Assembly (NCBI GenBank): GCA_021613335.1
Contig: JAJTWR010000159.1
Coordinates: 3,770,001 to 3,834,000 of the forward strand
Length of the DNA: 64,000 bases
Reading direction: 5' to 3'
From: Whitmania pigra
Lineage: Eukaryota > Annelida > Clitellata > Hirudinida > Haemopidae
Shown here: one piece after another, positions 19,301-47,827 of the stretch
How positions within the stretch are numbered: the stretch's first letter is position 1
How the letters are laid out: each line of letters begins with the position of its first letter
Made by a program: the position numbers and the translations under genes
Notes under the pieces: model-generated
Seen by the model: only the letters and a program-made list of their open reading frames with translations
What the model was told of the DNA's origin: nothing
Database searches by the model: none

Positions 19301-19983
19301 TCCAGGAGGTGGAGCTGTGGAGATGTCACTTGCACAGGTTGGTTTTATGGACTGAGATTGAGCAAGATAGCTGATGGATGAATGATGGCAGTTTGAATAA
19401 TGATTCTCAATGAACAAAGCATTCAATATGCATGTATCAAATTCATGAACATAGGCACTCAATGAGAAGGCCAAACTGATCACTGGACCACATCAACGAC
19501 CTTACAGAGCAGTTGCAAAGGCTCTGGAGATCATTCCTAAGACACTCATCCAGAACTGCGGTGCTCAGCCTATCAGAGTTCTTACAGCTTTGAGGGTAAG
19601 TTGTTCGATGACATTATTTACCCTATGACCTTTATTTTAAATTTTTAAATGTTTCTCTATCAAGGCCAAGCATGCTGTTGAAGGCAATCAGAACTGGGGA
19701 ATTGATGGAGACACAGGCAACATTGTGGACATGAAGGAGTTTGGTGTCTGGGAGCCTTACTCTGTTAAAGCTCAGATCTACAAAACTGCAATCGAGGTAA
19801 CAAACCGTGACCAGGATGTTGTTATAAATTACCCCTCTGATGTTTTGATCTAATTTATTAAAATTTTCATTTAAGACTGCAAGACTACTTTTGAGGATAG
19901 ATGACATTGTTTCTGGTTCCAAGAAGAAGAGGGGTCAGGAAAATGAACAAGCACCGCCATCTGGCATGGGACCTGAGAACTAA
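16307..19983 (+). CDS. CCT3: T-complex protein 1 subunit gamma (CCT3)
   Basis: A multi-exon gene begins [11 protein letters not shown] at 16307 and ends [12 protein letters not shown] at 19983. It follows CCT3 throughout: TRTCLGP-type [34 protein letters not shown], the ATPase motif [154 protein letters not shown] and [17 protein letters not shown]. The G-D-G-T-T-S loop and the VPGGGA motif that bind nucleotide are intact. CCT3 is one of eight subunits of the cytosolic TRiC chaperonin that folds actin and tubulin. All exon joins checked are GT-AG. The duplicated block begins about 215 bases after its stop, inside or just beyond its 3' UTR. Confidence 0.97.
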
Positions 19984-20199
19984 GTCCACTTGTGAAGGAG
20001 TGCATTTTTAAGAAGTCCTTTTTGTTCTTTGAAGGAACTTGTCTGTTTAATTAAATGTTTCTTATGTTGCTTCTAAGTTTGTGTTGCAATGTTGAATTTT
20101 TTGTCCAAAAACTCAATCTTGCTCTGGAATGTGTTTTTTATGCCAAGAAAAAAAATCTCAAAATTTGGTTTACCAGTCTTGTTTCATTTGTACAAGGCA

Positions 20200-20815
20200 T
20201 TGAAGATGCCATCACCAAGCATATTATATACCTTCCCAATGACAGCTATTGGCACTATGACATATCCGTCCATCTTTTTATTCAGCTATTCAACCGCTAA
20301 ATATGGGATTCACGAACAAGTTGCATCTGAATTTTGTTATGGATATATTTTTTTAAACTGTCGAGGATTCTGTAAGACTTGTCCATAAGGAATGATTGTG
20401 GTTGCTGCCATTTTCTAAATTATGGGGCAACTTCAAGTCAGTGAGTGCTCACTAGCTGGAAGATAAATGACAATTGGTTGAATATGGCAATTATGCTGGA
20501 AATGAATATGTATTGATTATTATGTATATTTGATATGTACCTTTTTGGCTCTCTCATGCAATCTTTCTTGTACAAATCATGGTATGCCTCCATTGCTTCT
20601 ATCTTTGTATTTATGGACTGGTGTCTTAATTTCCATTGACTTTTGAACATTTTGGTAAGGAGGTAAATATTAGTTGGCTTCCTTAAAGCAAGAAATTCTA
20701 TGTTAACCTGTTTTCTGGGTGGCTTGAAGATTCTTATATCTTTATCAATGCTGTCTTGTCTAATGGATTTTGTGCTTTTAAGCTTGCAATTAATTTTTGG
20801 CAAAAGTTCTGTATT
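20200..20815 (-). pseudogene. duplicated 3' end of the AGBL2/3 gene
   Basis: On the minus strand this matches, with few differences, the last two exons and 3' flank of the carboxypeptidase gene at about 29,195-29,717. It keeps an open frame ([20 protein letters not shown], then the [14 protein letters not shown] segment). It has no upstream exons and no catalytic part. At 20,815/20,816 it is fused directly to tropomyosin sequence, so the 172-residue open frame crossing the join is chimeric and not a real protein. Homology ends at about 20,200, matching about 29,717 in the source. Confidence 0.85.
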
Positions 20816-21475
20816 GGAGAAGGAATTAGAGGAAACCATCATGGCTGGAGAGGATTCCGATAGAAGATTCGAAGAGGTAAACAAAATAAAATATTTTATC
20901 GAGAATAATACTTGGTTAAATAAGGTTAAAACTTTCATTAACGAATTCAATAACATTTGAGCTTTAATGGCATAAAATGACCGTTAGACTCTTATCGACT
21001 CGCTTTTTTACAGACATTCAAAAAACTGGCATTCACTGATATGGAACTCACACGCGCCGAAGCGTCCTACGAAGCAGCAGACGCGTGCGTGTTTTTTTTT
21101 TATTCGTACGGGAATTTATTTTCAAAACACGTTTTCATGAAATTGAAACAATTTTCAGGAAGGTTCTCGAGCTCGAAGAAGAACTTCACGTAGATCTCTC
21201 GAAATATCTGAACAAGAAGTAACTGTTGCTTGTCTGAACTAATTAATTAATTCATTCATTTCTCAAATAAAACGTAGCCTTTTTATAATGCTTATAAAGT
21301 ATAATTAGCTTCAGGTTTATCTTTATGATTTTAGTTCCTTGAAACATTTATTAATTTTAATGTTTATTTACTTCTATCAATGAATAGCATTATTATACTC
21401 TTAGTTTTATCAAAGAGAAGAAAAATATGAGGAGAGGATTGCCGCTCTAACTGAAGGCCTTAAAAATGTGAGCTG
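20816..21475 (+). pseudogene. tropomyosin pseudogene fragment (exons 4-7)
   Basis: The segment copies, inverted, the region 39,150-38,480 of the tropomyosin gene: part of exon 4 ([19 protein letters not shown]), exon 5 ([20 protein letters not shown]), exon 6 and exon 7 ([13 protein letters not shown]). In exon 6, sixteen bases present in the intact gene (between CACGTA and AATCTC) are missing, which shifts the frame and gives [10 protein letters not shown] and a stop. Exons 1-3, 8 and 9 are absent. It is clearly non-functional as tropomyosin. Confidence 0.88.
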
Positions 21476-21799
21476 ATTAAAACATTTCTCTTTTATTTTG
21501 ATTCATTAGACTTCATTGTATTAAAGAGTGAAGGTTTGGAATCTCAATTTGTAGTTTTGATCAGCCTTGAAACTCTGGTTCACAAAAACAAAATGCTTAA
21601 CTCCAAGTGCAGTTCTCTATCTAAATAAATATCAGATTCTTTGAACTTAGTAGATTAGACAACACAAGATATACAAAGTATAAAATATTTGATTTAGTAT
21701 TTGAGTTTTATGTGCTTGTATAGATGGCAGCACAAAAACAAAACTAGATGAGAAACATATTAAAAACAAGTCCATATAAAAAGAAGATTTGATTGCAGA

Positions 21800-23176
21800 T
21801 TATCTGAGTTGGTGCTGTGGGTTCAGGTTTTGAGTGAGACGTTTCAACTGGTCCCAGAAGACCAAAGTCAGCACCGTGTGGGGACCAGATCTGAACCAAG
21901 AAGCCCCCCATCCTTTGTAGAGGCCCCACAATCCTTCGGTTTTTAAGACTTTCCTAAAACAGTCCACAACTCCCGAGTAGATCATCCCCTTTCCTTGTGA
22001 GCAGACGCCTTGATTGTAGATCCGTGTGGAAACAACATCAAATGGAGTCATGACGAAAACCACTGCGACTCCGCTGACCATACTGGCCAAAAATCCATTT
22101 TTCCAATCCCTGCTTGAACTAAATAGCTGCAAGACATTATGCACAATTAAAACTGGCGACACTTAGTTGTTAAAAATTGTATTCTAGATTATAATAATAA
22201 GTATTATACTTATTAATAAAGTTTATTATACATATTAATGAAAAATGTAATCATTCTTAAAATTTAGAATATCGTTTTGAAAACATATTAACAATTCATT
22301 AAATATTAACTTTGTCATAGGTCAAACCTTGGCATCAACAATCTTCTGCTTACACCAAGAGAAGGTTGTTAGCTGAGCAGCTGAACCAATCATGACTCTG
22401 GTCATGGCAGACGGTGCACCCCTCCACATCCCGAGAACTCCATGTTGTGAATAAACGGAATTAAAGGCCTGCCGAAAACTGAGATGTGCGTGTTGGTGTC
22501 CTACGGCAATCTCTTTTGCAGCCATGGATTGGAACTGAATCTTCATCTATTGAAATGTTACTTAATTAATGAATATTTAATGTTCTGTAAAGTGACATAA
22601 ATCCATTAGTAGGCTGCAAGACTGAGTGATATTTAATGTCACTCACAACTCATTGAACACAAGCTCAATAGCATAATTCTTTTTACTTTAAAAAATGAAC
22701 ATCACTTTTTAGAAAACTGACCATGTAAAAGGGACTCCCAACCAAAGCACCAACACAGCCTGAGAACCCAGCAGCTGCTATCGACTTCAGAGGTGATACT
22801 TGTTCTCCATTGACTCTTATGAAGCCTAGATCGTCAATGGTCTCATAGACTCCTAATCTAATTCCGTTCATAAATAGTTGATACCACAAGGCAGGAACGA
22901 GACCTTTCTGCAAGGCCCAGATGCCATCAGTACTGGCAATTTTATAAAAGGCATGAAAAACGTTTTTGTAGTGCACTGTATATTTTCCTGGAAGTTGAAA
23001 TAATGTACTCATGTAGACATGTCAAGTGTATTTGTTGTGATTATTGGGTAACCTTTTGACATCAATTCTCCTTGTAGTTGCATTCGTGTTTTTACGACCT
23101 CTAACGGATTGGTAAACAACCCAGCACCGCAGGCGGCCGTTCCGCCAACAGCAAACTCTAAAACTCCAGCTACCAT
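21800..23176 (-). CDS. SLC25A35: SLC25A35-type mitochondrial carrier, duplicate copy
   Basis: Four exons are intact on the minus strand: start at 23,176 ([18 protein letters not shown]), then [40 protein letters not shown] and the last exon ending NPQHQLR at 21,800. The product is about 311 residues, matching the copy at 35,476-36,851, with about 13 residue differences, nine of them in the last exon. The three carrier signatures survive ([34 protein letters not shown]). SLC25A35 is an inner-mitochondrial-membrane carrier with six transmembrane helices; the substrate is not firmly established (oxaloacetate or other dicarboxylates are suggested by its yeast relative OAC1). It is the only gene that remains complete in the duplicated block. 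Confidence 0.9.
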
Positions 23177-23510
23177 TGGCACACTAATTATTTTTTTAAA
23201 GCAAGTCTTAATTCTTAAGTTCTGGTTTTCCGAACGGAAAAAACACCTGAGCGACCCAACCTACTATCGCCCATGCTCATGGTTATTAACCTCTTTCAAA
23301 GTTCCAAGGTAATTTTAATACAATTCGTTACTCAATCAGAATTTTATGTCGGTTGTTTTAAATTACACAATCTGAAGACATAACATAATGCAACCTCATA
23401 ACACAATATATTCGGTATAGTGATCGGTATAGCAGGGCGAGAGCCCATTGTTAAAAGCCCATATTGCACATTTACATATAGTTATAAATGAAAGTTAACG
23501 AATTTTTCAG

Positions 23511-24045
23511 AATTCAAATAATTGAAAATGGAGACACAATCATCTTGTTGATATCGTCGTTCAGTGCCGACCAATCAGGAACTTATACCTGTGCTGCCCA
23601 AGATCCCTCCAACAAAGTCTGGATTCTCAAAACCTTGGAACTTACTGCTGATGGTAATACTTTTATCCAGTGTTAAACATTTTTGGTATTATCGAAACTT
23701 CTGAATCTATGTCAAATGTGTCTAATTTGTATTAACACAGATCCGTCAAAAGTTGAAATAATTGAAAGAAGTTCCGATAAAGAGGACTCACAATCAATTC
23801 CACCTCTTGTCGCTTATTCCACCAAGTTGGACTCTATCGAGAAAGACTCCACTAGGAAACATTCGGGCAACTCTTTTCCAGCATCCCAGCAAGACATCGC
23901 AGTCCATCTCACATGCACGGCTGTCCTACCAGATAAACTTTCTTATTTGAATTCAGTTTATTTCAACAAGTCGACATCGTCTGAAAATATGTTTCCATCC
24001 ACTGTGTCTGAAAACTGTAGACATATAATACGAGCATCTTGAAAA
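23511..24045 (+). pseudogene. Ig-domain membrane protein pseudogene (middle exons only)
   Basis: Two exons match the middle of the minus-strand Ig gene at 32,441-34,541: the second half of the Ig domain (ISSFSADQSGTYTCAAQD) and the Ser/Thr-rich stalk (SFPASQQDIAVHLT). The signal-peptide exon (source 33,873-34,541) and the transmembrane/cytoplasmic exon (source 32,441-32,735) are missing. The stalk exon ends in foreign sequence and a stop after ENCRHIIRAS. Without signal peptide or membrane anchor it cannot make the original product. Confidence 0.85.
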
Positions 24046-24082
24046 ATCATGCTAGGGCTTATTTTCGGGAAAACACGATATT

Positions 24083-24207
24083 CAGGGACGTTATTTCAGC
24101 TTTTTCCAAGGGCGGGGGAAGCAAACCCTTGCGCAACTTGAGGAGATGACCCATTTTTGCGTCTGGTCTGACGTCAGGGGGAAACGAACCCCCAAATTAC
24201 GTCCCTG
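24083..24207 (+). mobile_element. 125-bp MITE with CAGGGACGT termini (intact copy)
   Basis: The element starts CAGGGACGTTATTTCAGC and ends AAATTACGTCCCTG, giving imperfect terminal inverted repeats (CAGGGACGT outermost). Flanks ACGATATT and ATAATATT agree at six of eight positions, compatible with an 8-bp hAT-type target duplication. It has no coding capacity. The same insertion is present in the right block (29,926-31,221), where a 1.16-kb hAT element has landed inside it, so this copy predates the duplication. Relatives lie at about 3985, 7225 and 60,970. Confidence 0.75.
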
Positions 24208-24861
24208 ATAATATTACTTCCACAGATAAAGTATCTGACACATTTAATAATATTTTTGAGTTATGTCAATTACACAGGAATGGATGGGTCGAATAAATGA
24301 AACCCAGACTGAAAATTTATTTCAAAGAACTTTATGATTTTTTTGGTTTTCGCTTGGTTGATAACGAGATGGGATGCTCTAAAGTTAATTTTTTTAATGA
24401 ACCATTGTGCTGTATCGCTTAATAATTCATAATTCATAACATTATGATAACGAATAGAATATAGCGCGGCTTTGAACATGTGGTTTTGTGCCAAGGAGGC
24501 AACTTCTTCACTAGTGATATGAAGATAGTTGACTAACAGAACAAATTTAATAATAAAAATGCGACATTGCACCAATTCTATAAATAAATAACATGAATGT
24601 CATGTAGTTGGACCGTTTAAACCTGTAATTAAATCGTGTGCCTTCTTAAATCGCCTTTAGTCGCTCATGGGTCAGAAAGTTTTGTTGCTATGGTAAATAG
24701 AAGCAAGTAGTTGTATAGCACTTTCTCGCGTTGAACAGAAGGAGTCTAGTAAGACGATGATACATTCGAATTTATCGATAATATTATCTAATTTAATAAT
24801 ATCAACTAATTTATTGAAAGGACTCTCTCAAATATCATTGATGAAGTTTTGGTAATGAGGC

Positions 24862-27800
24862 ATGGATAGCGATAATATAGCTTTAACAAAACATTTTCCT
24901 AACAGTTTTAAAAGGAATGGACAGAAGCAAGGTAAGTGACAGATGAAAAGAAACAGTTTTTCTCTTCATGAGTTCAAGGTGAAATATGTTTTCAGAACCC
25001 TACCGCAATCCTACCCCAAGAGAACTAAGAACACAACTTGAAAATGAACTAAACGAGCAGGTTCACAGGATTTTGAGTGAACAGTTTCCAACTTTGTTAA
25101 TATCCACAAAGCCAGTGCAAAAATCATCCACTTTATCCAGTGCCTTTGGACAAAATCAAATTAATAAACAATTTAAAAAGTCAAAACATGAAAAAAACAT
25201 CTCCATTAATATGTTAGATGAGGGAATGCAGAAATGCATTGATGATTCAAAAACACACAAGATAAAGAAAGCAGTATCATTCTCCAATGATGAAAATTCA
25301 TTTGGAAGAGAGTATATCATTAATTCTTTCCCACTACCCAATGATTTTGACAAAAAAGATTTAAAAATGCATAGTCCAGAAGTAAAATTTAAAACAAGGC
25401 AATATTATTCTGAGATGATGCAGCTGGCCCACAATGATTTTGGATCAATGTCTAAAATTCAGAAAAAATCCTATTATTACATTCACACTGTTCAGGGCTT
25501 CACCGAATCATTGACTCTGGGTAAATTGCCTGACGGAACAAATTTGCAGGAAGTGGAACCGGGAAAATTTACAGATTATTTTGGTTTTGTTCGATGGCTA
25601 AATGGACCTTTCTGGCCTTCGGACTATGGACCTTTGCATCCTGCACCGATTCTAAAACGCAATAATTCAGTTAATTTCCCAGAACCTTTGCTCAATGGAG
25701 GTTCAAATGAATTTAATGTTTTTTCTTATTTTAAGATAAGGAATTAATTTATTAACTATCACTTGCTATTAAGAATTATGTTCACACAATTTTACATTTA
25801 TGTAAATAATTATATAATAATAATAAATAATTTTAATTTTTTAGATCAATTTGGTGTGGATGACAAGATGAAGACTGAATCTCCATCAATATTTGATAGC
25901 AAATGGATAGCTCCAAAAGTTGTTTACAATGCAGAAACATTTGCCAAGAATTACCAAACCACCTCTCAGGGACCAAATTTCTGTCCAAGTCTTGAGTTTG
26001 AATCAAGATTTGAGTCTGGAAACCTATTTTCTGCAAATCAAGTGTGAGTTCCTAAATCTTTAAAGTGCAAACTGAACCAAAAGTGTGAATTCAAAAAAGA
26101 TCACTATGCACCATTTTCCGTCATCGTCCTCTATCATCATGTCAGCCCCTATTCATCAGCCATAATAATCTTAATATCCACCAACTAAATGTATTTCATA
26201 TAGGCCTATTCATTTACCAATATTCACAAAGCATGCTGCCTTCTTTTTTTGATGGTTATTTCGAGTTGATAAATAATTGCCATTCTAATAATTTGCACAA
26301 AGCCCACCAGTTTCGGTCCTACCTGGCCAGATCAACCTTGAAATTGTTCTCCATAAAATGCTCCGGTTCTCTAATTTACTTTAACATACCAACAATATTA
26401 AATCGTCCACCTCATTATCAATATTCAAAAGTTTATATAAGTCGTACTTACTTCGTTCGAATACTATTAACTTGTATTCGCATGAACCGCCAAAATTAAT
26501 CTAAACTCATATTTGGTTCACGGTCGATTTAATTCTGCACATTTAAATAGGTTGCAGTCTTAGCAGGTACATTCACCCTTTGGGCATCCTTTGGCAGTCA
26601 TTCATTGTTGGTTTTGTTTTATCATGTTGATGTAAATTCTGATGATGCCAAGAAGAAAAAATAAATTCAATTAAAAAAAAACAGTTCCAGTTTTTAACAT
26701 CAGGCCACTTTGCTGATTTTATAAAGTTGTAAACAAAATTAAATAATAAAATAATTAGGGGCCAGACAGAGTATGAATTGGTCTTGAGAACTGATCTTCA
26801 CACTTCTGGTCATACTCAGTGGTTTTATTTTCGAATGAAGAACATGTTCAAGGGTCTGAGATACCACATCAAAATTGTCAACTTGACAAAAAAAAGCAAC
26901 CTCTATATCCAAGGTTAATTAATAATATGCACCATTACGTTCCCTACTACATTTTTTTCTTTTTATGCCATTAAAAATTTAATTATTACAAAAACACGAA
27001 ATGATTAAATTCTCAATATATAAAATGTTCTTCAATCAGGCATGCAACCACTTTTGTATTCAGAATATTTGGCAACAACAAAAAACATTGACTGGCATAG
27101 GTGTGGCTATGGAGTCAAATATTCAACTACTACTCAGAAATCATATTATCAGGCAATGGATCAGAATCAGACTTATTACACCTTAGAGTGGTTCATGGTT
27201 GTTTATTTTCTTACATTGCATTTATTTTAATATTTTTTTTGTTCCATGTAATAAATACAATATATATATATTAAAAATAAAGGAGTTTCCTCAAGACAAT
27301 GACACCTGCTACATGGCTCACTGCTACCCATACACATATTCTGATCTGCAGCGTGACCTAACCAGCATGATGAAGAAAGGTGGTAATCTTTTAAAGCTGG
27401 ATAGTCTCTGTGTTACAAGAGCTGGTAACACATGTTTTCTTGTGACCATTGATGATCCAGGTTAAACTTTTGCATTTAATGTTTATTTTTGTAATTGTTT
27501 ATTTGATTTTTAAGTACCATCTTGTTAATAAATATACAGAGTTTTTGTCTAATGACAAGAGGGTAATAGTTTTCTCAGCCAGAATACATCCAGGAGAGAC
27601 CAATAGTAGTTTCATTATGAAGGGATTATTAGAATTTCTCACTGGGTCTTCTGAATTTGCACAGGTTCATGTTTCCTTAAATTTTTAATTACTTTTTTAT
27701 TTGTTAGAGCTCCAAGCCCTTATTGAATGTTTCATAATAATTTGAATTGAATTTTAGGAGCTTAGAAAAAATTTTATTTTCAAAATAATTCCAATGTTGA

Positions 27801-29627
27801 ATCCCGATGGAGTCATCATTGGAAACTACAGGTGTTCCTTGGTTGGAAGAGATTTGAACAGAAATTTCACCAAACCCCATAAATCCTTTTTTCCCACAGT
27901 CTATCACTTGAAGCAGCTCATAAGCAACTTTCAGGAGAGAGTAAGATTATTCTTTTAATTTGCAATTCAATCAAATTTAAATAAATATTTATTGTTAATA
28001 TTCCAAAACAGATAATTCTTTATTGTGATTTACATGGACACAATCAAAAGCAGAATGTTTTCATGTATGGATGTCCACCCAATATCTCAACCAATGCCTT
28101 CAAACCAGAAGACTATCTCAAAACAAGGATCATTCCCTGGTTAATGTCTAAACAGGTTATTCATTATTTTTATTTTATCAAAACTTAGTTTCACTTAAAT
28201 CGTTAGTTAATTAATTAGTTCATGTGACAAATACAATTTGAGGCTAGATATAATATTTATGTTTTAATGAATTTTCATGATATTTAACAAAAATAACACT
28301 TCAGTCTCCTGACAAATTTGCTTTCAATGGATGCTGCTTTCATGTTTCAAAAAGCAAAGAATCGACAGCAAGAGTTGTGATGTTCCGACAATTCAATATA
28401 ATCAATAGCTTCACTCTGGAGGCAACATTTTGCGGCACAACAGTTCTCAGGTCACCTCAGTCAAGAAAAATGATACACAAATCATAAAAATTCAATAATT
28501 CTGTTTCAAAACAATCATTTCAGATATTGATAACGAATGTTACAATAATTTTCAAATGACAATTGCATTGTTTCTGATCATCATTAATAATATTGTTTTT
28601 AATATTAACTCCAGGCAACAGTTCAACATGGAGGACTTTGAGGATATTGGAAGGTCACTGTGCAGGGTAATGAGTCAGTACAATAGACTCACTTCTGACA
28701 AAGAGTTAAGGCTCATTGAAATTTATTCATAAGCAAGTCCAACTGCTCCTTTACTACAATCTCTTTCAGATATGAAAGAAATATTATCTGCAACTTGGCT
28801 CATGAATTCCACAAAATTACCTTGAGTAATGCAGGACTCAAAAATGACACAAAATTAAAACCATTAGGAACAACTCGGGAAGAATATCAAGGTTAATTGG
28901 TGAAATTAAAATCGACATGAAATTTAATTTAAAACTCTTTGCTGCCAGATGAGATTCAAGAGACAGACTTATTGAAAATTGTTCAACATATTTCTGCCAA
29001 CGATGCTTCAAAAGAATTAGAGTGAGTTCCAATAGATCTTCAAAAACTTAATTTAATGAACATGACCAATGAATATTACTAAATATAGACATGAAATGGA
29101 TTCTGACACTGAATCAGAACCAGAAAACTATGAAACGTGTCAATCCAAAAGACATAAAAGACCAAAGTATCTCCAGAAAAAAAATCCAGAACTTCTGCCA
29201 AAAATTAATTGCAAGCTTAAAAGCACAAAATCCATCAGACAAGACAGCATTGATAAAGATATAAGAATCTTCAAGCCACCCAGAAAACAGGTTAACATAG
29301 AATTTCTTGCTTTAAGGAAGCCAACTAATATTTACCTCCTTACCAAAATGTTCAAAAGTCAATGGAAATTAAGACACCAGTCCATAAATATAAAGACAGA
29401 AGCAATGGAGGCATACCATGCTTTGTACAAGAAAGATTGCAAGAGAGAGCCAAAAAGGTATATGTCAAATTTCAGTCAATACATATTCATTTCCAGCATA
29501 ATTGCCATATTCAACCAACTGCCATTTATCTTCCAGAAAGCTAGTGAGCAAGACAAGACTCATTGACTTGAAGTTGCCCTGTAATTTAGAAAATGGCAGC
29601 AACCATGCACATTTAGTGTTAATTTAG
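24862..29627 (+). CDS. cytosolic carboxypeptidase AGBL2/AGBL3 type (tubulin deglutamylase)
   Basis: Fifteen exons run from [17 protein letters not shown] at 24,862 to the stop at 29,627 (for example 24996-25700, 27540-27664, 27758-27940, 28012-28155, 28305-28450, 29089-29457, 29537-29627). The product is M14B-subfamily: [19 protein letters not shown], zinc ligands in [12 protein letters not shown] (HxxE) and [16 protein letters not shown] (third His), the substrate-carboxylate motif [16 protein letters not shown], and the catalytic Glu in [12 protein letters not shown]. These arrangements fit CCP2/CCP3, which trim glutamates from tubulin tails in cilia and centrioles. The C-terminal tail is basic and lineage-specific. 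Joining exon 5 (ends 27,190, LEW) to exon 6 (27,283, EFPQDND) by GT-AG leaves the frame one base short; every other junction is in phase. The 3' two exons are duplicated at 20,200-20,815. Confidence 0.9.
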
Positions 29628-29925
29628 TGGTTGAATAGCTAAATAATAAGATGGACAGATATGTTGTAATGTCAATAGCTATGTCATTGGGAAGGTATAT
29701 AATACGCTTGGCAACAGCAATGGTTTAATGGTTCATTAAAAAAATTAACTTTAGAGCATCCTAGCTAGGTATCAACCAAACGAAAATCAAAAAAATCAAA
29801 AAGTTCTTTGAAAAAACATTTCAGTCTGGGTTTCATTTATTCGACCCATCTCTTCCTGTGTAATTGACATAACTCAAAAATATCATTAAATGTGTCAGAT
29901 ACTTGATCTGTGGAAGTAATATTAT

Positions 29926-31221
29926 CAGGGACGTAATTTGGGGGTTCGTTTCCCCCCTGACGTCAGACCAGACGCAAAAATGGGTTATCTCCTCAAGTTG
30001 TGCAAGGTTTTGCCTAGACCTCCTAGCCGCCGCCATTTAGCCAAATCCGCCGAACATTTCAATTATGCCAAAAATCCGCCGAAACTTTTTCGGCTAGCCC
30101 AAATCGCCGCCATAAAGTGCGATTCGATCCAGCCGCCGAATTCTTTCACAGCGCCAAATAAATTCAAATTTAATTTAAAAATTTGTTCATAGACATAGAA
30201 TAGTATAGAAATAAATGTTTTAAATATAAAATATTTAATTAACTATTCTAAATATTTACTGATATTTAGCAATATTTACCTATAAAACCGCATTATAAGG
30301 GATCGCTATAATTGTGTCAGCTCTAAAAAAATGTTTACTTTTGATCGCATTTGGGTTTTTTATTCGCCATTTTCTTTTGTCACGTTTTCGTGTGTATATT
30401 ACTGTCAATTGTTGTATTAAAGGTTGTGAAAAGTCTAAATATTCGTAAATCTCTTTAATATTTCAATATTCAATTTCAAGCACAGCTATTTATCGAGATG
30501 GGGGAAAATTTCAGTAAGAAGGTACTCATCAAGGGAATGATTTGAATTCTTTGGTTAGTATAGAAATCTTGTTAATAGTATTTGAGCAAGAATAAGAAAA
30601 ATATTATATATAAACATAATAAAAATGCACTTGCCATAAATTATTATCAAATAATTATTTGTGTGTTGAAATGTAAAAATTGCTGTTAATATTCTGTATC
30701 GCAGGTAGCAGTAGAAGTCGCAAGCTACTTGACATCAAAGAGATGTGATAATGGCGAGGAAGTATTGACCTTTTGGAAGAAAGCAGTGGTTTCTTTCCCA
30801 CTTTTATCACAATTGGCCAAAATGCAATTACCAGCATCAGCAACATCAGTTCCAGTGGAATGCATGTTTTCGACTACTGGCCTGGTTGCTAACAGCAAGC
30901 GATCTGGTTTGTCTGCAGAAAGATTGCACCGTGTGACATTTATTCATGACATTTTGACATTATAGTGCAATAATTTTATATTATTAATGTTACTGAAAAA
31001 CCCTTAGTTGATAAACTTATTTCGTTCAATTTTTAAAACTCAGCCACATTTTAGCCGAATTATTCCTATTTTCAGCCGGAATTTTTAATAATCACGTGAA
31101 TTCGGCTAAGCCGGATATCAGCCAGATTTTTTGCTCAGCCAGCCATAGTTTAAAATAAATTCGGCTAGGGGGTCTAGTTTTGCCTTCCCCACCCTTGGAA
31201 AAAGTTGAAATAACGTCCCTG
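29926..31221 (+). mobile_element. CAGGGACGT MITE split by a nested hAT element
   Basis: Read inverted relative to 24,083-24,207, this is the same MITE insertion. Its outer ends are CAGGGACGTAATTTGG at 29,926 and TAACGTCCCTG at 31,221. The hAT element at 30,015-31,176 interrupts it. Removing that element and one 8-bp repeat leaves a sequence colinear with the left-block copy. Confidence 0.8.
30015..31176 (+). mobile_element. non-autonomous hAT transposon, 1162 bp, 8-bp TSD
   Basis: The target duplication GTTTTGCC flanks the element at 30,007-30,014 and 31,177-31,184. The termini TAGACCTCCTAGCCG and CGGCTAGGGGGTCTA are inverted repeats with one mismatch, and sub-terminal copies of GCCGA/GGCTAAGCCGG motifs crowd both ends. 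The only coding remnant is the hAT C-terminal dimerisation domain at 30,729-30,965 (QLPASATSVPVECMFSTTG, RSGLSAERLHRVTFIHDIL); zinc finger and catalytic core are absent. It must depend on a transposase in trans. The left block lacks it and keeps the empty site near 24,119-24,127. Confidence 0.92.
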
Positions 31222-31285
31222 AATATCGTGTTTTCCCGAAAATAAGCCTTAGCATGATTTCTCAAGTGTTTGTATTCATAATTCA

Positions 31286-32440
31286 GTGCCTCGAATATAT
31301 AACAGATTTATTATAACCATTAATAGTTATTTTGACATTACCTTATTTCGACAAGATGAGCACAAAAAAAAAGCTATTCCGTTGAAGACAGAAATCGCGG
31401 AAGACTCACTGGACAAGAATCCTACAGATTTCTGTAAAGAAAATAATTTGAATATTCAAATGATCTCAAATGGCGAGCATAGTATGATGACCTCAGTCAA
31501 CAGTTAGACGAGGGAAATGCTAAGAAGTACAAGTGTGGTTCAAAAACTCTATGAAGCCTAACCTGCGAGATGTTGTGAGTTGGGTTAATAATTCACTGTC
31601 AAATCACTGGCAGTTGTGTGGCCAATGAGGCATGGTACATGAACACGAAGTTCTCTTGGTCAACGTGAGAGATTGAGACCAATAGTTCTGTAGGAAATGG
31701 ATTCGCAAGAAATTCAGGCAAGGCTTCAGAGTTTGGAGATCTTTATTGATGCTCCAGAAAAAATTGATATAAACTTATTCGACTAATTTTTAAAAATACT
31801 CTAATTGAGGGTTTTTCTAACATTCTTGTAAAATATTAATTTTTAAATAAGTGTTTAAAACCATACTCCTTGTCTCCTGTAGCTTAATAACTTGTGTAAT
31901 ATGAAAAAATGTTCTGATGGGTCGTTGATTTTGAAAATATAAGAAACCCCCGAAATTAAGCCCTAGAGCGTCTTTTGGAGCAAAAATTAATATAAGAAAC
32001 TGTCTTTTTTTCGGAGAAACACGGTATTATTAATCGTGACAGCGTTGAGTGGGTTCAATTAATTTGTTTATTATATTATTATACCCCTTTAATGCTTATT
32101 TACAGAGATGTGTTTAGATTTTTTTTTATTAAAATGCTTTTGTTACATACCGAACGTTGTTTGTGTTTCATACAGCACTTCGTTCAAAAAGCATCACGAA
32201 TTTTTCGAAGAGTACTTGACTTTGCCATATCTAGGATGTCTGGTATAACTGACATGCAAGTACGAACATTGAAAATAACTGAAATATTAACAACCGATCG
32301 AGCAATAAAATCGTTTGCAGACGGATTACGGTGAACAGGTGAACAAGCCCAAAGTACATTCGTCGAAGCTGGAATAATTTACGGCGCGAAGCAGCAGAGC
32401 TCGTGCAGCCTCGCCACAAAACCCGATATTGACATCTGCC
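31286..32440. other. non-coding stretch with transposon-end fragments
   Basis: No gene is recognised. Positions 31,940-32,030 carry CCCCCGAAATTAAGCCCTAG and an inverted GGAGAAACACGGTATT, a degenerate copy of the repeat noted at 11,235. The frames at 31,286 and 32,092 show no known domain. The stretch is missing from the left block, so it was lost there or gained here. Confidence 0.5.
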
Positions 32441-34541
32441 TCAGGCGAGGACTGTGTAACCATTTGAAGATAATGTCAGTGGACTGTCCAATCCATAATC
32501 ATTGGCCGGAAGATTTTCCCGACTGTAGCTTGGATTTCCGAAAGTGATGTATGTGCTTTTTTTGCCATTCCTACGGTGCCTGTACAGAACCAGAGTGGTT
32601 GCAACTGCCGTGAGAACGATAGCCAGCGCCACCCCGATGGCCACTCCACTAGCGTTGTTTTCTTTTTCCACTTGAAGGGCTTTCTGTTCTTCCATCTTTG
32701 CTGGCTCTTCTGCCATTTGTCTTTCGATGGCTTTTAAATTTTAATTTAAAATTAGTTAATTAGAAGAAATTGGTACACATTTTTGACCTACCGTTTGTTG
32801 CAGTCGTCAGATCATTAGTAACCAGAGAAGTCTTCGGCGTCTGAACTTGGTCGTCTTCTTCTTTGTTGGAGTTGGTGTAAAGTGGACCGGTCGATGGCAA
32901 GAAGTCTACAGTTTCAGACACAGTGGATGGAAACATATTTTCAGATGATGTCGACTTGTTGAAATAAACTGAATTCAAATAAGAAAGTTTATCCGGTAGG
33001 ACTGCTGTGCTTGTGAGATGAACTGCGATGTCTTGCTGGGATGCTGGAAAAGAGTTGCCCGAATGTTCCCTAGTGGAATCTTCCTCGATAGAGTCCAACT
33101 TGGTGGAATAAGCGGCAGGAGGTGGAATTGATTGTGAGTCCTCTTTATCAGAACTTCTTTCAATCATTCCAACTTTTGACGGATCTGTGTTAATACAAAT
33201 TAGACACATTTGACATAGATTCAGAAGTTTCGATAATACCAAAAATGTTTAACACTGGATAAAAGTATTACCATCAGCAGTAAGTTCCAAGGTTTTGAGA
33301 ATCCAGACTTTGTTGGAGGGATCTTGGGCAGCACAGGTATAAGTTCCTGATTGGTCGGCACTGAACGACGATATCAACAAGATGATTGTGTCTCCACTTT
33401 CAATTATTTGAATTCTGAAAAATTCGTTAACTTTCATTTATATGTATGTAAATGTGCAAATTCATGCAACTTCACCGTTGTATTTGTAAGGTAACAATAA
33501 TGAGAGATATACAGCATAATTACGAATTTGTCGTCTCCCGAAATAAAGGACTTATTTGTTTTAAGTGCGTCGCAAATATCGGTGAATTCGTCACAAAATT
33601 TATATCACAATTTTGAACCTTCTTATTTATTTATTTATTTGATTAGAGTCCGTTGCATAACTAAGATGATTTGGACTTCATTGAACATTCTTTCTTATGT
33701 AAAAAGAGTTCTTTTATTGCTGGGTTAACTCAGTGGCATGGCTAGGAACGGTGGTTTAGGTTACCCGGGACTAAAGTGAGGGGGAAAACCTGAATATGTT
33801 AAGCGAGCACAAAATTATCAAAATTGGATACCAAATTAATAATGTTAAGAGGACGCCCTCTTAGCGAAAGCCTTAGTTGCACTTTGGGATTAAATATATC
33901 GGTGGGTGAATATTTTTATATTCTAGAAAATCTAACCCGTCTGCTCCTTTGTCGCTTGAGTGATTGAGCCAAAGTACTTTCCATTGCCAACTCATGTTCG
34001 CGATGGAAAAATTTTTTCCAAAGTTTGTTTCAACAAGCCTAGTTATATCGTTTGGGCCACATGTCAAATTCACCAGTTTCCCTGGCTTGACTTCCATCGT
34101 TATGTTCTCCGCAGCATATTCTTCATTGTTCGATGGAACTGATGGCTTGGCAAATATGTCATCTCTTTCGGTATTTTGTGGTAGAGCTTCTGTTGGATTT
34201 ACTTCTCCGAAGTTTGTCTTTGTCAAATTTTGTGTCATAACGGGAATAAAAACATCTTGACGATCTTCATGAGCTTCCAGGGGTTCTTCTGCTGTCGTAT
34301 GGAAGTATTCTGTCGTATTAGGAGATACCGAAAATTTATTCAGAATGTCATTATCCGGATAGGGACTGAAGAGGTTGACCCGAGAGACATTTTCGGTTCG
34401 ATTGACAAGCTCACTAGATGTTCCAGAAGGTAAGATGTTGTTCGGATTTTTAGCAATGAATTCCGGGTTCAAATCCGATGCGTATGTGAATAAATCACAT
34501 GTTGAGTGCAGAACAACAAAGATTACTATCAAACCTTTCAT
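32441..34541 (-). CDS. single-Ig-domain type I membrane protein with Ser/Thr-rich stalk
   Basis: Four exons on the minus strand: 34541 to about 33,930 (signal peptide MKGLIVIFVVLHSTCDLF, an N-glycosylation-rich leader region and the first half of an Ig domain, VNLTCGPND and MSWQWKVLW), about 33,420-33,270 (second half, DQSGTYTCAAQD with the partner Cys), about 33,190-32,795 (Ser/Thr/Asp-rich stalk) and about 32,735-32,441. The last encodes a membrane helix (SGVAIGVALAIVLTAVATTL), the stop-transfer YRHRRNGKK and a 45-residue tail with an NPSY motif (endocytosis or PTB-docking type) and further tyrosines. It looks like a cell-surface adhesion or recognition protein. No orthologue was recognised. 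Exon 1 splits the Ig fold in phase at GADG/IQII. Confidence 0.75.
33625..33680 (+). repeat. copy of the GTCCGTTGCATAAC dispersed repeat
   Basis: TTTATTTGATTAGAGTCCG, then TTGCATAACTAAGATGATTT, matches the copies at 4315 and 59,000. It lies upstream of the Ig gene's second exon, in the first intron, and is absent from the left block. Confidence 0.5.
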
Positions 34542-35475
34542 TGTTAGAAAGCTAACAAATAGATTTTATGGAAATGATTAATTTTGAGTTCCAAATTCCG
34601 AGATACGACACTTTATACTTTATAGTACTCAATACTTTGTTGTCTTATCAAAAGGAATGAATAGCACAGAATAGATTACTTTATCTCTAGAGAATAAACA
34701 GTGGAAAATCACGAGCAAAGAATCCGTCCTCTAGTTGCAACGATGTAAATTAGGATCAATCCTGCTGCTGTTGCTGCCAAGAAATGCAAGAGAAGGCGAC
34801 GCTTGTGCATCTATACGATGTCATACATCCACAGAAAGAGATGAGATTACGTCACTTTATTAGTGAGTAAAATACTATAAATTGTTTATGCAATATAATT
34901 TGAATGTATCATCGTAAAAGTAGTTTCGATACCGCTTGAATATTATTCCGAATAAATGTAACTATCTCACGCATTAAGTATTGCAAGTAATTAATATTGT
35001 ATTTCTTTGGAAAATCGTAGCAAATGTTATTTCCTGGAAGAAGGCTGGGTAAGTTAGTAGCAGAAGAGGTTTTTCCTTGAATTGCTAACATTACTTTATT
35101 ATCGGGTACATCATTCCATCCATTTTCAAGTGGAATGGAAAATAATAACACAACCTTCAAAATAATGCCGAAAAGGCTGGGAGCCTTTTAGTTCTATATT
35201 TACGATGATTAATATTAATCTTTATTGATCACTACACCGAATACATTGTGTTATGAGGTTGCATTATGTTCTGTTTTCAGATTGTGTAATTAAAAACAAC
35301 CGATATAAAATTCTGATTGAGTAACGAATTTTATTAAAATTACCTTTGAACTTTGAAAGTGGCTAATAAGCATGAGCATGGGCGATAGTAGGTTGGGTCG
35401 CTCAGGTGTTTTTTCCATTCGGAAAACCAGAACTTAAGAATTAAGACTTGCTTTAAAAAAATAATTAGTGTGCCA

Positions 35476-36851
35476 ATGGTAGCTGGAGTTTTAGAGTTTG
35501 CTGTTGGCGGAACGGCCGCCTGCGGTGCTGTGTTGTTTACCAATCCGTTAGAGGTCGTAAAAACACGAATGCAACTACAAGGAGAATTGATGTCAAAAGG
35601 TTACCCAATAATCACAACAAATACACTTGACATGTCTACATGAGTACATTATTTCAACTTCCAGGAAAATATACAGTGCACTACAAAAACGTTTTTCATG
35701 CCTTTTATAAAATTGCCAGTACTGATGGCATCTGGGCCTTGCAGAAAGGTCTCGTTCCTGCCTTGTGGTATCAACTCTTTATGAACGGGATTAGGTTAGG
35801 AATCTATGGGACCATTGACGATCTAGGCTTCATAAGAGTCAATGGAGAACAAGTATCACCTCTGAAGTCGATAGCAGCTGCTGGGTTCTCAGGCTGTGTT
35901 GGTGCTTTGGTTGGGAGTCCCTTTTACATGGTCAGTTTTCTAAAAAGTGATGTTCATTTTTTAAAGTAAAAAGAATTATGCTATTGAGCTTGTGTTCAAT
36001 GAGTTGTGAGTGACATTAAATATCACTCAGTCTTGCAGCCTACTAATGGATTTATGTCACTTTACAGAACATTAAATATTCATTAATTAAGTAACATTTC
36101 AATAGATGAAGATTCAGTTCCAATCCATGGCTGCAAAAGAGATTGCCGTAGGACACCAACACGCACATCTCAGTTTTCGGCAGGCCTTTAATTCCGTTTA
36201 TTCACAACATGGAGTTCTCGGGTTGTGGAGGGGTGCACCGTCTGCCATGACCAGAGTCATGATTGGTTCAGCTGCTCAGCTAACAACCTTCTCTTGGTGT
36301 AAGCAGAAGATTGTTGATGCCAAGGTTTGACCTATGACAAAGTTAATATTTAATGAATTGTTAATATGTTTTCAAAACGATATTCTAAATTTTAAGAATG
36401 ATTACATTTTTCATTAATAAGTATAATAAACTTTATTAATAAGCATAATATTTATTATTATAATCTAGAATACAGTTTTTAACAACTAAGTGTCGCAAGT
36501 TTTAATTTTGCAAATGTCTTGCAGCTATTTAGGTCAAGCAGTGATTGGAAGAATGGATTTTTGGCCGGTATGGCCAGCGGAGTCGCAGTTGTTTTCGTCG
36601 TGACTCCATTTGATGTTGTTACCACACGGGTCTACAATCAAGGCGTCTGCTCACAAGGAAAGGGGATGACCTACTCGGGAGTTTTGGACTGTTTTAGGAA
36701 AGTCTTAAAAACCGAAGGATTGTGGGGCCTCTACAAAGGATGGGGGGCTTCTTGGTTCAGATCTGGTCCCCACACGGTGCTGACTTTGGTCTTCTGGGAC
36801 CAATTAAAACGTCTCACTCAAAACCTGAACCCACAGCACCAACTCAGATAA
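35476..36851 (+). CDS. SLC25A35: SLC25A35-type mitochondrial carrier, source copy
   Basis: Four exons (35476-35599, 35665-35930, 36106-36324, 36525-36851) give 311 residues, near the family's 300. Three tandem carrier repeats are present: [36 protein letters not shown] and [29 protein letters not shown] with [19 protein letters not shown] and FWDQLKRL. The order [14 protein letters not shown], GSPxYM, TPFDV.xTRxYNQ is diagnostic for SLC25A35/34. It should sit in the inner mitochondrial membrane; the transported substrate is not firmly known. The hAT element at 36,954 lies just 102 bases after the stop, in the 3' UTR. A near-identical, intact inverted copy lies at 21,800-23,176. Confidence 0.95.
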
Positions 36852-36953
36852 TCTGCAATCAAATCTTCTTTATATACGGACTTGGTTTAATCTGTTTCTC
36901 ATCTAGTTTTATTTTTGTGCTGCCACCTATACAAGCACATAAAACTCAAATAC

Positions 36954-37778
36954 CAGTGAAGGGCAAATCAAATCACGATTTCAGCAAGGTTACGATTCGA
37001 TTTGAACATTGTTGTATTCGATTTTGTCCTCTGAGATTTTGATTTTATTCGATTCGCATTTTTTCGATTCGATTTGAAAAGTAAATCGAATCTCGAGATA
37101 TGTGGAGCAGCCGTTCATTTGAACCAATTATAGGAGTGAAATTCCACTACTTTGATGAAGGCTTTCAACTGATAACAAAGACGGCTGCATACAGACACTT
37201 TGGGTCAAAACACACAGGAAAAAATATTTGTGCAGCTTTTGAGGAAATACTGTCAGAGTATGGAATGCAAAGCATTGACATTGGATATGTTGTTACTGAC
37301 AATGCCAGAAACATGCTTAAAGCCTTCACAATATTTTCAGAGGAAGCTGCCAGGTTTGCATTTGATTGTACGGAAGATAAAGGTGAAATGAAGGAACGTG
37401 ATGAGGCTTCAGAGCTTTCCGAAACTACATCGACTTGCTCGTAGACTTCTAAGCATCCCCGCATCATCTGGAAGTGTGGAGAGACTGTTTTCAATTTCAG
37501 GTGCTTTTGTCTCCGCAAGAAGAAATTGATTGTCAGCGTCAACTGTGGAATTACTGTTGCTGTTGAGGGAACATAGAACTGACTCAAACTGGGTTTAAAT
37601 GATATTTTTTTTAAATGGTAATAAAACTGTCATAAATGAATGTTGGCTGTTGATTTCATTGTGTTGTTTTTCACGAAAAAATTTGTGAAGCTAAGGCAGC
37701 AATCAATTTTTGAAGGTTTGATTTGAAATTTTGAGATTTGATTCATTTGACAAATGATTTGAGATTTGCACATCACTG
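36954..37778 (+). mobile_element. non-autonomous hAT transposon, 825 bp, 8-bp TSD
   Basis: TCAAATAC is directly repeated at 36,946-36,953 and 37,779-37,786. The termini are CAGTGAAGGGCAAATC and GATTTGCACATCACTG, inverted repeats matching at 14 of 16 positions. Subterminal GATTTGA/TTCGATTCGATT motifs recur at both ends. Inside, 37,100-37,370 encodes a piece of the RNase-H-like transposase core (DIGYVVTDNARNMLKAF) and 37,400-37,530 a piece of the dimerisation domain (IPASSGSVERLFS), separated by deletion and frame changes. The left block has the uninterrupted single TCAAATAC at 21,697-21,704 (inverted). Confidence 0.92.
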
Positions 37779-38162
37779 TCAAATACCAAATCAAATATTT
37801 TATACTTTGTTAATAAATCTTGTGTTGCCTAATCACAGAAAGTTTTGAATTTGTTTATTTTATCTTCACTTTCAGCACTACTAAGTTCAAAGAATCTGAT
37901 ATTTATTTAGATAGAGAACTGCGCTTGGACTTAAGCATTTTGTTTTTGTGAACCAGAGTGCAAGGCTGATCAAAAGTACAAATTGAGATTCCAAACCTTC
38001 ACTCTTTAATACAATAAAGTCTAATTAATCAAAATAAAACAAATTTCGATCCTCTAATAACCGTGACAGTAATCTGATTACTTTAACACAAAACATAACA
38101 AAATAATCCCGAAAGTGTGGACGGTAGTTGAGTCCATGTCGATGATGTTGAGACACAGCCTC

Positions 38163-40992
38163 TCAGAATCCAGTAAGTTCGGCAAAAGTAGCGTTGAGTT
38201 CGCTGTCGATGGTCTTGTATTTCTCTTTTTCGGCAGCCAACTCGTCTGCAATTTTGAGTAATTATTAATAATTACTAGTTTATCTTATTTATTAGATTTT
38301 GTTCTTCCAAACTTTCAGTGTGATACACGACATCAGAGGCCAAAATGTACACCCACCTTCAAGTTTGTCCACTTCCTTCTGGAGCAACTGGACGTAGTTT
38401 TCTGCATCTGCACATCGCTGTTCAGCCTGGAAATAGAAGTAAAATGTAAACAGCTGGTCCGCAACGAGCCAGAGAAATGTTTTAATCAGCTCACATTTTT
38501 AAGGCCTTCGGTTAGCGCGGCAATCCTCTCCTCATATTCTTCTTCTCTTTGATAGAACTAAGAGTATAATAATTCATTGATAGAAGTAAAAAACATTAAA
38601 ATTAATATATGTCCCAAGGAACTAAAATCATAAAGATAAACCTGAAGCTAATGTATGCATTATAAAAAGGCTGCGTTTTATTTGAGAAATGAATAAATTA
38701 ATTAATTAGTTCAGACAAGCAACAGTTACTTCTTGTTCAGATATTTCGAGAGATTTCATGTTGTTCGTCACTACGTGAAGTTCTTCTTCGAGCTCGAGAA
38801 CCTTCCTGAAAATTGTTTCAATTTCATGAAAACGTGTCTTGAAAATAAATTCCCGTACGAAGCAAAAATAAAACACGCACGCGTCTGCTGCTTCGTAGGA
38901 CGCTTCGGCGCGTGTGAGTTCCATATCAGTGGATGCCAGTTTTTTGAATGTCTGTAAAAAAGCGAGTCGATAAAAGTCTAACGGTCATTTTATGCCATTA
39001 AAGCTCAAATGTTATTGAATTCGTTAATGAAAGTTTTAACCTTATTTAACCAAGTATTATTCTCGATAAAATATTTTATTTTGTTTACCTCTTCGAATCT
39101 TCTATCGGAATCCTCTCCAGCCATGATGGTTTCCTCTAATTCCTTCTCCAATTGTTGGATTCTTTCTTCTTCGGTGACCATCTTGTTTTCTAAGACTTTA
39201 ATGCCTCTGTCAAAGTTGGATCGTCGGTTATGTTTGTATTACGCTTTGTTTTATGGAAATGTTTGCAAGCGAGAGCTTAGCATTATTTATTATGGCTTAA
39301 TTAACGCAACAAATAGGCAATAGAAAAAACTGTTAGCCTTAGCCTAAATAATAAATAAAACATAAATAATAAAAACATAAAATCGCAAATATACAAAAGC
39401 AGAATTATTTGCACAATTGATTCAGTTATTAACTAAGCCAGCTTCTGATATGTAAGCAGTGGTCACTGACCGCATAAATTAAAAAAACTTCTAAATCTGT
39501 CTAACCTCTCGCTCTCATCAGCGGCTTTACTGGCTTGTTCAAGCTTCTCTGATGTTGCTTTTAACTTGCCTTCAGTTGTTTCAAATTCCTCTTCCAACTG
39601 CCTGACCTTTTTCGTCAAATTCTGGACCTCAGCCTCTGCCTAGAATTCAAATTTAAAATGATTATGAGTTCAAGAGTGTCACAGAGTGGAAGTATCTCAG
39701 TATTAATTTACAGAATTAATTTTAACTTCGAGGCAATTAATTTGTCTAAGATCAAAATTATTTAGAAAGAAACAAAAGATATAAGAGAATTTACATGTGT
39801 ATATAAAACATAAAAAGCATAAATGCGCTGTTTCCGCCCTTGTGTTTATTGGAGCTAATATAACTGAGTCATCGTTCGGGTTACTTTAATCCGTTATCAT
39901 CCTATTGCACAACGTTCTTATGGATCGGAACATCTCGCAAATTATCGAGTTCTAAAGGATGGCTTTATAAGGCGTTATCGCATCCAGACATCCATTCTTA
40001 CTGATATTGTTATTAATATTCCAAATTAAATCAAACTTAAATAATGTCCTTCAAAATATGCATTATTTTGTTGAGGGATAAAGCTGGTGGCCTGGGGACG
40101 ACTATTTCTTAATTAATTAATAATGGATTTAATACCGCTGCGAGTTCTTGTGTGATTGCTTCTACTTTCTGATTCTGTTCTTCTAGACTTGCTTTAGCGG
40201 CTTCAGTGTCTGCTTCCAACTGAACTATTCGTTTTTGAAGGTTGCTGATTTCCTCAGCTGACTAAAAAAAATATATGTAAAAAACATAAAAACATCTTTC
40301 ATGACAAAATAGTATTTCAAAAATTTGTAGTTAATTATCGCAAAAAGTTTGTTGGAATCTTGGGACAGCGATATGAGCTCGAAAAATATCTTGGGCGTGA
40401 ACTCGCTGCAGCAGAACAGCTTCGAGTGAGTTTGGAAAAGATGAAGTTCCAGGAGCATAAATCATGCTCATGCGCCTTTGTTTTGGATCTAAGCAGCTGT
40501 TACGAACTTTTTGAGTGTTTTGATCTTTTTTACTTGCCGAGGAACTTGTCATGGCTAAGAAATTCGCGTTTAAATAAAAAAAATGTAAAGGAGAATATTT
40601 AAAAGGACTAGTCACATACTAAATTCCATATATACTAAATAGTCATGCTAAAAATTAAAAAAAAACAAGTGTATTTTTTTATTTGTAATGCAATGGTTTA
40701 AATTTTTAATTTTTTTTAATTAAAAAAAAATGGTATAGCTGATTTTTGTATCTCCCCATCATGAATCGTCACTAAATCTTGCCCCCTCCCCCTCTCCTGG
40801 CTTTCGATTTATATTTGCATTTGTACAGCTTGCGATTCAAAATTGGGAAAAATTTCATACCTTTTCAAAAACGACTTTTTGTTCTGCAAGTTTTTGTTCG
40901 AGCTGGTCACATTTGTCAAAGGCTGTTTCTTTTTCCAGCTTCATTGCCTGCATCTTCTTTTTGATAGCATCCATAGTAGCGTTGGAACCCAT
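38163..40992 (-). CDS. TPM: tropomyosin
   Basis: Nine exons on the minus strand (40992-40861, 40261-40136, 39639-39506, 39206-39089, 38951-38881, 38805-38730, 38557-38495, 38426-38357, 38245-38163) encode 290 residues, an unbroken heptad coiled coil. Landmarks are [64 protein letters not shown] and the C-terminus [19 protein letters not shown] [14 protein letters not shown]. Exons 2-8 have the vertebrate TPM lengths (126, 134, 118, 71, 76, 63, 70). Tropomyosin dimers polymerise along actin and gate myosin binding. Six extra residues (MGSNAT) precede the usual MDAIKKK start at 40,974; either Met could be used. The stretch 38,480-39,150 is the source of the pseudogene at 20,816. Confidence 0.97.
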
Positions 40993-42344
40993 CTTGTCTG
41001 TTTTGTTATTGCCTTGCTAAACTACAAATTAATTTTACAAATATTTTCAAAATAATATCACTTGTTTTACGTTCCTTGTTCAAACGTCACAAGATTAGTC
41101 AAATATATTTATTTAATAGCAACACTAAAAATTCACGCCACTTGATGAACAAATAAATTTACAAAAATAACTTTAATCTCTACCAAAATATTATCCGATG
41201 ACAGCGGAACTTGAAAGTAGCCAACTACAAAAACTCTGAAACAATAGCGCTCTCAGAAAACAGCCCTACAAATGGAAGAGTGAATTTACCGAAAAGACTT
41301 GAGATTAGGATCTTATGAGATCTCCGGTGTATCCTGCTCGTCAGATGCTGCTTTGAGCACAAGCACTACAGAGCAAGGCAAATGAGAAGAGCTTTCTAGA
41401 TGAGCGGAGTTGCAGTTGAGTAGTTATGCTTGTGGTCAGGCTTTACTGGGAAGCTTCTCAGCGGCGCCTCTAAGCGATGCGAGGGGGAGACTGGGCTTCT
41501 AGATAGTGCTGCTGGGATTCTAGGCAATTAATCTCAGGTGTAGATAATCGAGCTTTCAATCAGACTAGTGCAAAGAATAGAATCAGCTTGTTAATGACAG
41601 GTAATGAGCAACAATTATATGATGCACGCTAATCCCCTCATGCTCCCCAATCGATAGCGCCACTGAAAAAATGTTTTTGCCGACCTAGTGTAAAACAAAA
41701 CTTTTAAGTCTGCTCAGGCTCTGGAGTTGTGTTAGGATGCAGTAATAACAGCAATACAGATTAATTTTGACATTTGCGAGGCCCACGTGGAGCCTACATC
41801 CTTCCTACTGAGTGAACTTTGACTGGCGAAATACTTTTCAAAAAACTAAAAACGACTGAGAGGTGAAAATTCCTAAGCCGAAAAATTCAAGCAGAAGCAA
41901 ATAGGCGGGATTTATCTCCGGCATACAGTCTAAATTTTTAGCATTTTATTTGATAAAATTTGAACTTCGAAACAAACGCTCCCAAGTCGAGGTGTGTGAT
42001 AACTAATCAGATCTGAATTCGAGATATCAGAAGTTGAGCAATGTATTTTAATACAATCATAAGGCTCGACATAAATAAATAATTCTTAATTGTACTCAGA
42101 AGGCTTAAATAAGTGCAAGAAAATATCTATCGTGAACATCCATTATCATAACAAAAATAAGTAAAAACTCGTGGACAAAATCAAAATCTATCATATAAAC
42201 CACGACATTATAAAATAATTTTTTTGAACAAAATCAATTCTAAAACGCGCCTAATAATACATAACGCCAGTCAGCTCCTGCGATTCACGCTTTGAGTAAG
42301 GGGTTTGGGAGTTTCTAAGACGAGATATTAATAATTACAAGTAT
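40993..42344. other. tropomyosin upstream region, no gene seen
   Basis: The stretch lies between the tropomyosin start and the end of the minus-strand DAPK-like gene. It should contain the tropomyosin promoter and 5' UTR exons, and the 3' UTR of the downstream gene. I could not identify a TATA box or an E-box/MEF2 cluster with confidence, and no protein-coding exon is visible. Confidence 0.5.

Positions 42345-47749: not shown

Positions 47750-47827
<78 letters not shown>

Follow-up and report, generated by a model that had tools for sequence, protein, structure and literature searches.

An inverted and circularly permuted gene-bearing duplication in Whitmania pigra, probably copied through a DNA circle

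How can a block of genes be duplicated at close range so that its copy is not only inverted but also begins and ends at one point inside the source? The question is raised by a 64,000-bp stretch of the genome of the annelid Whitmania pigra (Hirudinida; assembly GCA_021613335.1, contig JAJTWR010000159.1, positions 3,770,001 to 3,834,000 of the forward strand), hereafter the window, whose own numbering is used below. Two related blocks lie in it, both with the 3' end of a gene labelled AGBL, parts of a gene labelled immunoglobulin (Ig), a mitochondrial-carrier gene and part of a tropomyosin gene. Judging from their arrangement, a segment of about 8 kb was most probably copied by way of a closed DNA circle, which would have opened at a new point and been reinserted in inverted orientation.

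When the left region (19,500-25,500) was compared with the right (28,000-41,000) by blastn, nine of nine matches were inverted and their order was permuted: 20,215-20,815 pairs with 29,711-29,183, after which 20,813-24,406 pairs with 39,152-29,727, the individual pieces being 84-97% identical. The left block (20,215-24,406, minus strand relative to its source) is thereby delimited to 4,192 bp and the source block (29,183-39,152, plus strand) to 9,970 bp, which refines the bounds of 20,200-24,410 and 29,195-39,150 given in the initial annotation, where the left block had already been recognized as an inverted, circularly permuted copy of the right. The AGBL 3' end occupies 20,215-20,815 (minus strand; donor 29,711-29,183), with about 96 bp at 20,303-20,398 standing opposite some 16 unmatched donor bases. 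It is followed by the partial tropomyosin copy (20,813-21,715, plus strand), which consists of an exon truncated at the junction, a following exon with a 16-bp deletion, and one further exon. An inverted copy would run from 39,152 to 29,183 without a jump, whereas this one jumps from 29,183 to 39,152; simple inverted or direct duplication is thus ruled out by block order, as the initial annotation had argued for the inverted case. The blocks A-B/C-D of the donor have become B-A/D-C, with the donor ends fused inside the copy. This order is described in PMC7450558 as the signature of a circular intermediate.

The junction at which the circle would have closed lies at 20,813-20,815, where donor ends 29,183 and 39,152 are fused with a 3-bp overlap, ATT, common to both source ends and the copy; the join had earlier been placed at 20,815/20,816 with a few bases of ATT microhomology, correctly to within 3 bp. 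Within 500 bp on either side of the closing ends, shared sequence was limited to 10- to 14-bp words with E values no better than 0.19, so that homologous recombination between the ends is unlikely, and closure by that route was rejected. As for the outer edges of the copy, the left edge (20,215) corresponds to 29,711 and the right edge (24,406) to 29,727, and the 15 bp between them (29,712-29,726), the presumptive opening point, are absent from both edges. The initial annotation had described neighbouring edges and proposed a left-right dot plot as the means of checking them; the blastn alignment does place them close together rather than far apart, with a gap of 15 bp instead of about 10.

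The proximity of the edges bears on whether a circle is needed at all. By fork stalling and template switching or microhomology-mediated break-induced replication (FoSTeS/MMBIR), a polymerase starting at 29,711 could have copied as far as 29,183, switched to 39,152, continued to 29,727 and then gone back to the acceptor. The 3-bp microhomology at the sole internal junction and the nearness of the donor to the acceptor fit replication-based repair. In such a model only chance would bring the return point to within 16 bp of where the polymerase entered, and randomly placed edges came that close in 0.34% of trials with a 9,970-bp source and in 0.42% with a 7,990-bp source (200,000 trials each). 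Because edge proximity is this rare, a circle is favoured over template switching, which we consider very unlikely.

Mobile elements do not account for the edges either. Among the matches scored, no repeat family extends to any of the four block ends (20,215, 24,406, 29,183 and 39,152), which argues against transposon-mediated movement of the block. When the flanks of the insertion were joined and inspected by eye, no target duplication was apparent. A miniature inverted-repeat transposable element (MITE) had initially been drawn as the outer edge of the copy. The short multi-copy repeat pieces in question (about 24,022-24,232) are instead internal, some 170-200 bp from the edge, and their donor version is split by a hAT element; movement by the MITE was accordingly discarded.

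The direction of copying was judged from the continuity of exons and open frames at the ends of the right block. At its right end, a tropomyosin exon (39,089-39,217, minus strand) runs uncut across the closing point at 39,152. In a phmmer search of PDB (E up to 1), 18 of the 21 sequences matched by this exon were named tropomyosin, the best of these (E 0.00016) aligning over residues 3-43 of 43 and crossing the breakpoint unbroken; the top match overall was SD21996p (E 4.7e-05), and two others were MBD2. Six tropomyosin-like exons, placed by eye, follow in order from 40,974 to 38,492, one of them with a Pfam match below the curated cut-off (E 7.9e-06; 25.9 vs 38.6 bits). At the left end, an open frame of 166 codons (29,066-29,566, plus strand) is likewise uncut across 29,183. 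Upstream exons, two of them combined into a single query, resemble zinc carboxypeptidases (PF00246, E 9.9e-06), whereas the 29,066-29,566 frame itself gave no Pfam family. When one AGBL exon was searched against PDB, only designed proteins were returned, a result judged meaningless. We take the gene to be AGBL from the label of the initial annotation and from sequence motifs. Since exon and frame are uncut at the ends of the right block and the exon is cut in the left, the right block is, by the reading of these coding sequences, the donor and the left block the derived copy. The reverse polarity was excluded on the same continuity.

Two transposons separate the blocks in time. A hAT-type element (30,015-31,176, plus strand) is flanked by 8-bp target duplications at 30,007-30,014 and 31,177-31,184, and a second, hAT-like element (36,954-37,778, plus strand) by others at 36,946-36,953 and 37,779-37,786; in each case the two target duplications are identical, and the terminal inverted repeats are short and imperfect by eye. 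The first encodes a hAT dimerisation domain (PF05699, E 5.8e-09) and belongs to a multi-copy family with a 99.7% identical member on contig C339, and the second also belongs to a multi-copy family, with near-full-length members at 82-87% identity. The empty sites of both are present in the copy, from which it follows that both elements inserted after the duplication and that the circle would have measured about 8.0 kb (7,967 bp by subtraction), as against the 9,970 bp of the donor today. A third donor repeat, at about 31,275-32,034, adjoins a gap in the copy.

Over 4,007 aligned columns the copy differs from the donor at 129, a divergence of 3.2%; the count includes the 3 overlap columns two times and omits stretches adjoining large gaps. 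The other large gaps in the copy correspond to donor 32,035-32,903, 33,460-35,226 and 38,040-38,470. Over most of their length these three stretches have no genome-wide repeat among the matches scored, and the first two contain long open frames, so that sequence loss from the copy explains the gaps best. A fragment of the putative Ig gene (23,464-24,022, plus strand) persists between missing neighbours, donor 33,460-35,226 and 32,035-32,903. Its label finds a hint of agreement in Pfam, where the exon copy at 23,512-23,652 resembles Ig families at scores below their cut-offs (best I-set, E 0.0018), and none in the larger frame of the gene (33,876-34,565), for which no family appeared at E up to 0.001 and the match at E 0.16 was at chance level. 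Where donor 33,460-35,226 is missing, the copy has 38 bp of filler (23,426-23,463) that include two GGGCT words.

The differences are not evenly spread. The longest stretch without a difference spans 413 bp (22,430-22,842) and includes introns, compared with a maximum of 353 in 2,000 shuffles, and the variance-to-mean ratio of differences in 100-column bins is 2.47, the shuffle maximum being 1.85. A tract, 22,233-23,120 vs 36,419-35,532, is nearly identical, introns included, and its flanks are about 4-9% divergent. Gene conversion between the inverted copies around the carrier gene is the likely and simplest reading of this clustering, which in exonic parts may reflect varying constraint instead.

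The same comparison bears on whether the second block could be an artefact of assembly, or a divergent haplotype that was set next to itself. The junctions are read from the assembled sequence, as such an artefact would allow. The divergence of 3.2%, unevenly spread, speaks against a recent chimera, and the 129 differing columns, the two transposon insertions with their target duplications and the several longer gaps are hard to reconcile with either artefact; both copies, moreover, lie within one contig of 4.15 Mb. We regard this explanation as extremely unlikely.

The search for further copies covered the 178-Mb assembly. The left block as query gave 44 listed matches, with 40 of the 440 candidates from the first look scored, of which matches nine fall in the two blocks of the window and the remaining 35 elsewhere, all of them short and inside the repeat at 24,022-24,232. 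With 28,700-29,700 as query, donor and copy were the only matches, and neither search revealed a third copy of the unique parts among the matches scored. These results also bear on a variant in which 29,183-39,152 was first doubled head to tail, one unit then popping out as a circle by homologous recombination and being reinserted on the left. A tandem intermediate would give the same junctions, would account for the single donor copy, and would make the permutation automatic. It requires one extra step, and no leftover tandem unit was found in the donor by self comparison of the whole window or by the genome searches; such a remnant is a known source of false positives in screens for duplications mediated by extrachromosomal circular DNA (eccDNA) (Takahashi and Innan 2020; PMC7188851). 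The variant, which modifies the circle model rather than opposing it, is unlikely on present evidence.

In the series of events that we favour, a chromatid segment of about 8 kb (29,183-39,152 today) would have been closed into a circle by end joining with a 3-bp overlap. The circle would have opened at about 29,711-29,727 with the loss of 15 bp, and would have been joined in inverted orientation just 3' of CCT3, 4.8 kb from the near end of the donor, the sequence of the donor locus being kept. Afterwards the copy would have shed some 3.1-3.9 kb, comprising parts of the tropomyosin gene and the Ig-like gene; the region around the carrier gene probably underwent gene conversion, and both carrier genes have stayed open. 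The sequence itself shows the order and orientation of the blocks, their edges, the 3-bp overlap, the lack of homology at the closing ends, which block is the donor, and the two later insertions in it; that a circle physically existed, how it was joined and that one event was enough are what we infer. The permuted order supports the circularization and reinsertion suggested in the initial annotation, and its single step is the most economical reading rather than a proven one.

The carrier gene, of the SLC25A34/35 type, is the part of the block that was copied whole. In the copy (21,800-23,176, minus strand) it has exons at 23,176-23,053, 22,987-22,722, 22,540-22,328 and 22,126-21,800, with 309 codons, no internal stop, and GT-AG boundaries at all three introns; the donor gene (35,476-36,851, plus strand) likewise has four exons and 309 codons, splice sites having been picked by eye. 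Three Mito_carr stretches are present in each protein. Of 41 relatives of the donor last exon, five are named, and three of these are solute carrier family 25 member 34/35 or 35-like. The two proteins differ at 13 amino acids, with 7 synonymous and 13 nonsynonymous nucleotide differences; the corresponding proportions are 0.033 (pS) and 0.018 (pN).

Several points weigh against the proposed history. At the 37 last-exon columns conserved in at least 90% of at least 20 sequences, it is the donor that deviates alone at three (216, 227 and 234), the copy alone at none, and both at three, which is unlike the expectation of an intact donor and a dying copy, and which does not overturn the polarity. 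The circle has been deduced from the assembled sequence of one genome and not seen. Finally, the open reading frame across the junction was not found in the protein database, a test without power and indeed uninformative, because the carrier exon of the donor itself is also missing there.

The carrier comparison, small in its numbers, suggests that the copy is not simply dead and that constraint on the donor gene may have been relaxed. At position 168, in exon 3, the copy differs from all four relatives that cover it, which counts against one-sided drift; positions 19, 88, 90 and 204 had no relatives for comparison. The second hAT-like element sits about 100 bp past the stop codon of the donor carrier. 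As a tentative and rather doubtful extension, the carrier brought back by a small germline circle could be a living gene, possibly taking over function from a drifting donor gene that has acquired a transposon nearby.

Circle-mediated duplication as such has been proposed before. Chicote et al. (2020) reported 24 human cluster pairs with permuted order, of which 16 (cSDP1-16) were characterized, at 22-3,918 kb (PMC7450558). The present pair shares with these the permuted order, the joining of the donor ends inside the copy, the lack of homology at those ends and the transport of genes, and the junctions of both show microhomology or short indels only, of 1-2 bp in the cSDPs and 3 bp at the closing point here. 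The human segments, in contrast, are 22-3,918 kb long, as against about 8-10 kb here, and their copies lie 0.09-58 Mb apart or on other chromosomes, as against a distance of 4.8 kb; the cSDP screen required the same block orientation, whereas the present copy is inverted. The three strong human cases of eccDNA-mediated duplication described by Takahashi and Innan (2020) were similarly read, from swapped block order, as circles cut elsewhere and reintegrated; they have 95-97% identity and span about 20-130 kb, with the donor unclear in two of three, while the donor here is set by exons and later transposons (PMC7188851). Circular intermediates have also been invoked, as cited in PMC7450558, for the cattle KIT colour-sidedness translocations (segments of 492 and 575 kb), for tilapia vasa (28 kb) and for five-gene clusters in yeast, the hosts being vertebrates or yeast.

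Among invertebrates, chromoanasynthesis in C. elegans, in which a retained chromatid fragment reintegrates, is mentioned in the Discussion of PMC7450558, so that a relative of the process is already on record. A permuted duplication of the present form in an invertebrate did not appear, by title or opening of the abstract, among the matches listed from the open-access literature. With the mechanism already proposed for human, cattle, tilapia and yeast, what is new here is a small, short-range and inverted case. Among the circle-mediated duplications compared here, those with stated sizes are vertebrate and of about 20 kb or larger; the Whitmania pair suggests that small gene duplications, too, arise by way of circles and would be classed as inverted repeats in ordinary surveys. 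Its closing point can be read to 3 bp and its opening point to 15 bp, with the direction fixed by coding sequence, and a simple screen follows, namely for duplicates whose paired edges are neighbours in the source.

The acceptor site lies in the 3' flank of a gene that we take, following the initial annotation, to be CCT3. An upstream exon contains a chaperonin domain (E 2.9e-18), the gene ends at 19,983 in a frame assigned by eye, and the insertion begins about 230 bp past the stop codon, in agreement with the reinsertion near the CCT3 3' end first suggested. An open frame on the minus strand (24,411-24,536) ends at the right edge of the insertion; it is coding-like and possibly part of a gene cut by the insertion. 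It had no PDB match up to E 10, and the surrounding frame gave only a chance-level Pfam match (E 0.094). In 264 kb of the same contig no other permuted duplication was detected among megablast matches of at least 200 bp (11 rows, of which this pair accounts for five). One further duplication above 1 kb, and no more, turned up in that scan; it is direct (contig C71, 3,570,001-3,574,489 and 3,584,349-3,586,935), 93-94% identical in two pieces, and its first copy is split by about 1.9 kb lying between direct repeats of about 309 bp that are 96% alike, as in a small element of the long terminal repeat (LTR) type. Elsewhere in the window, an AAC/AATAAC simple repeat of about 116 bp occupies 47,720-47,835.

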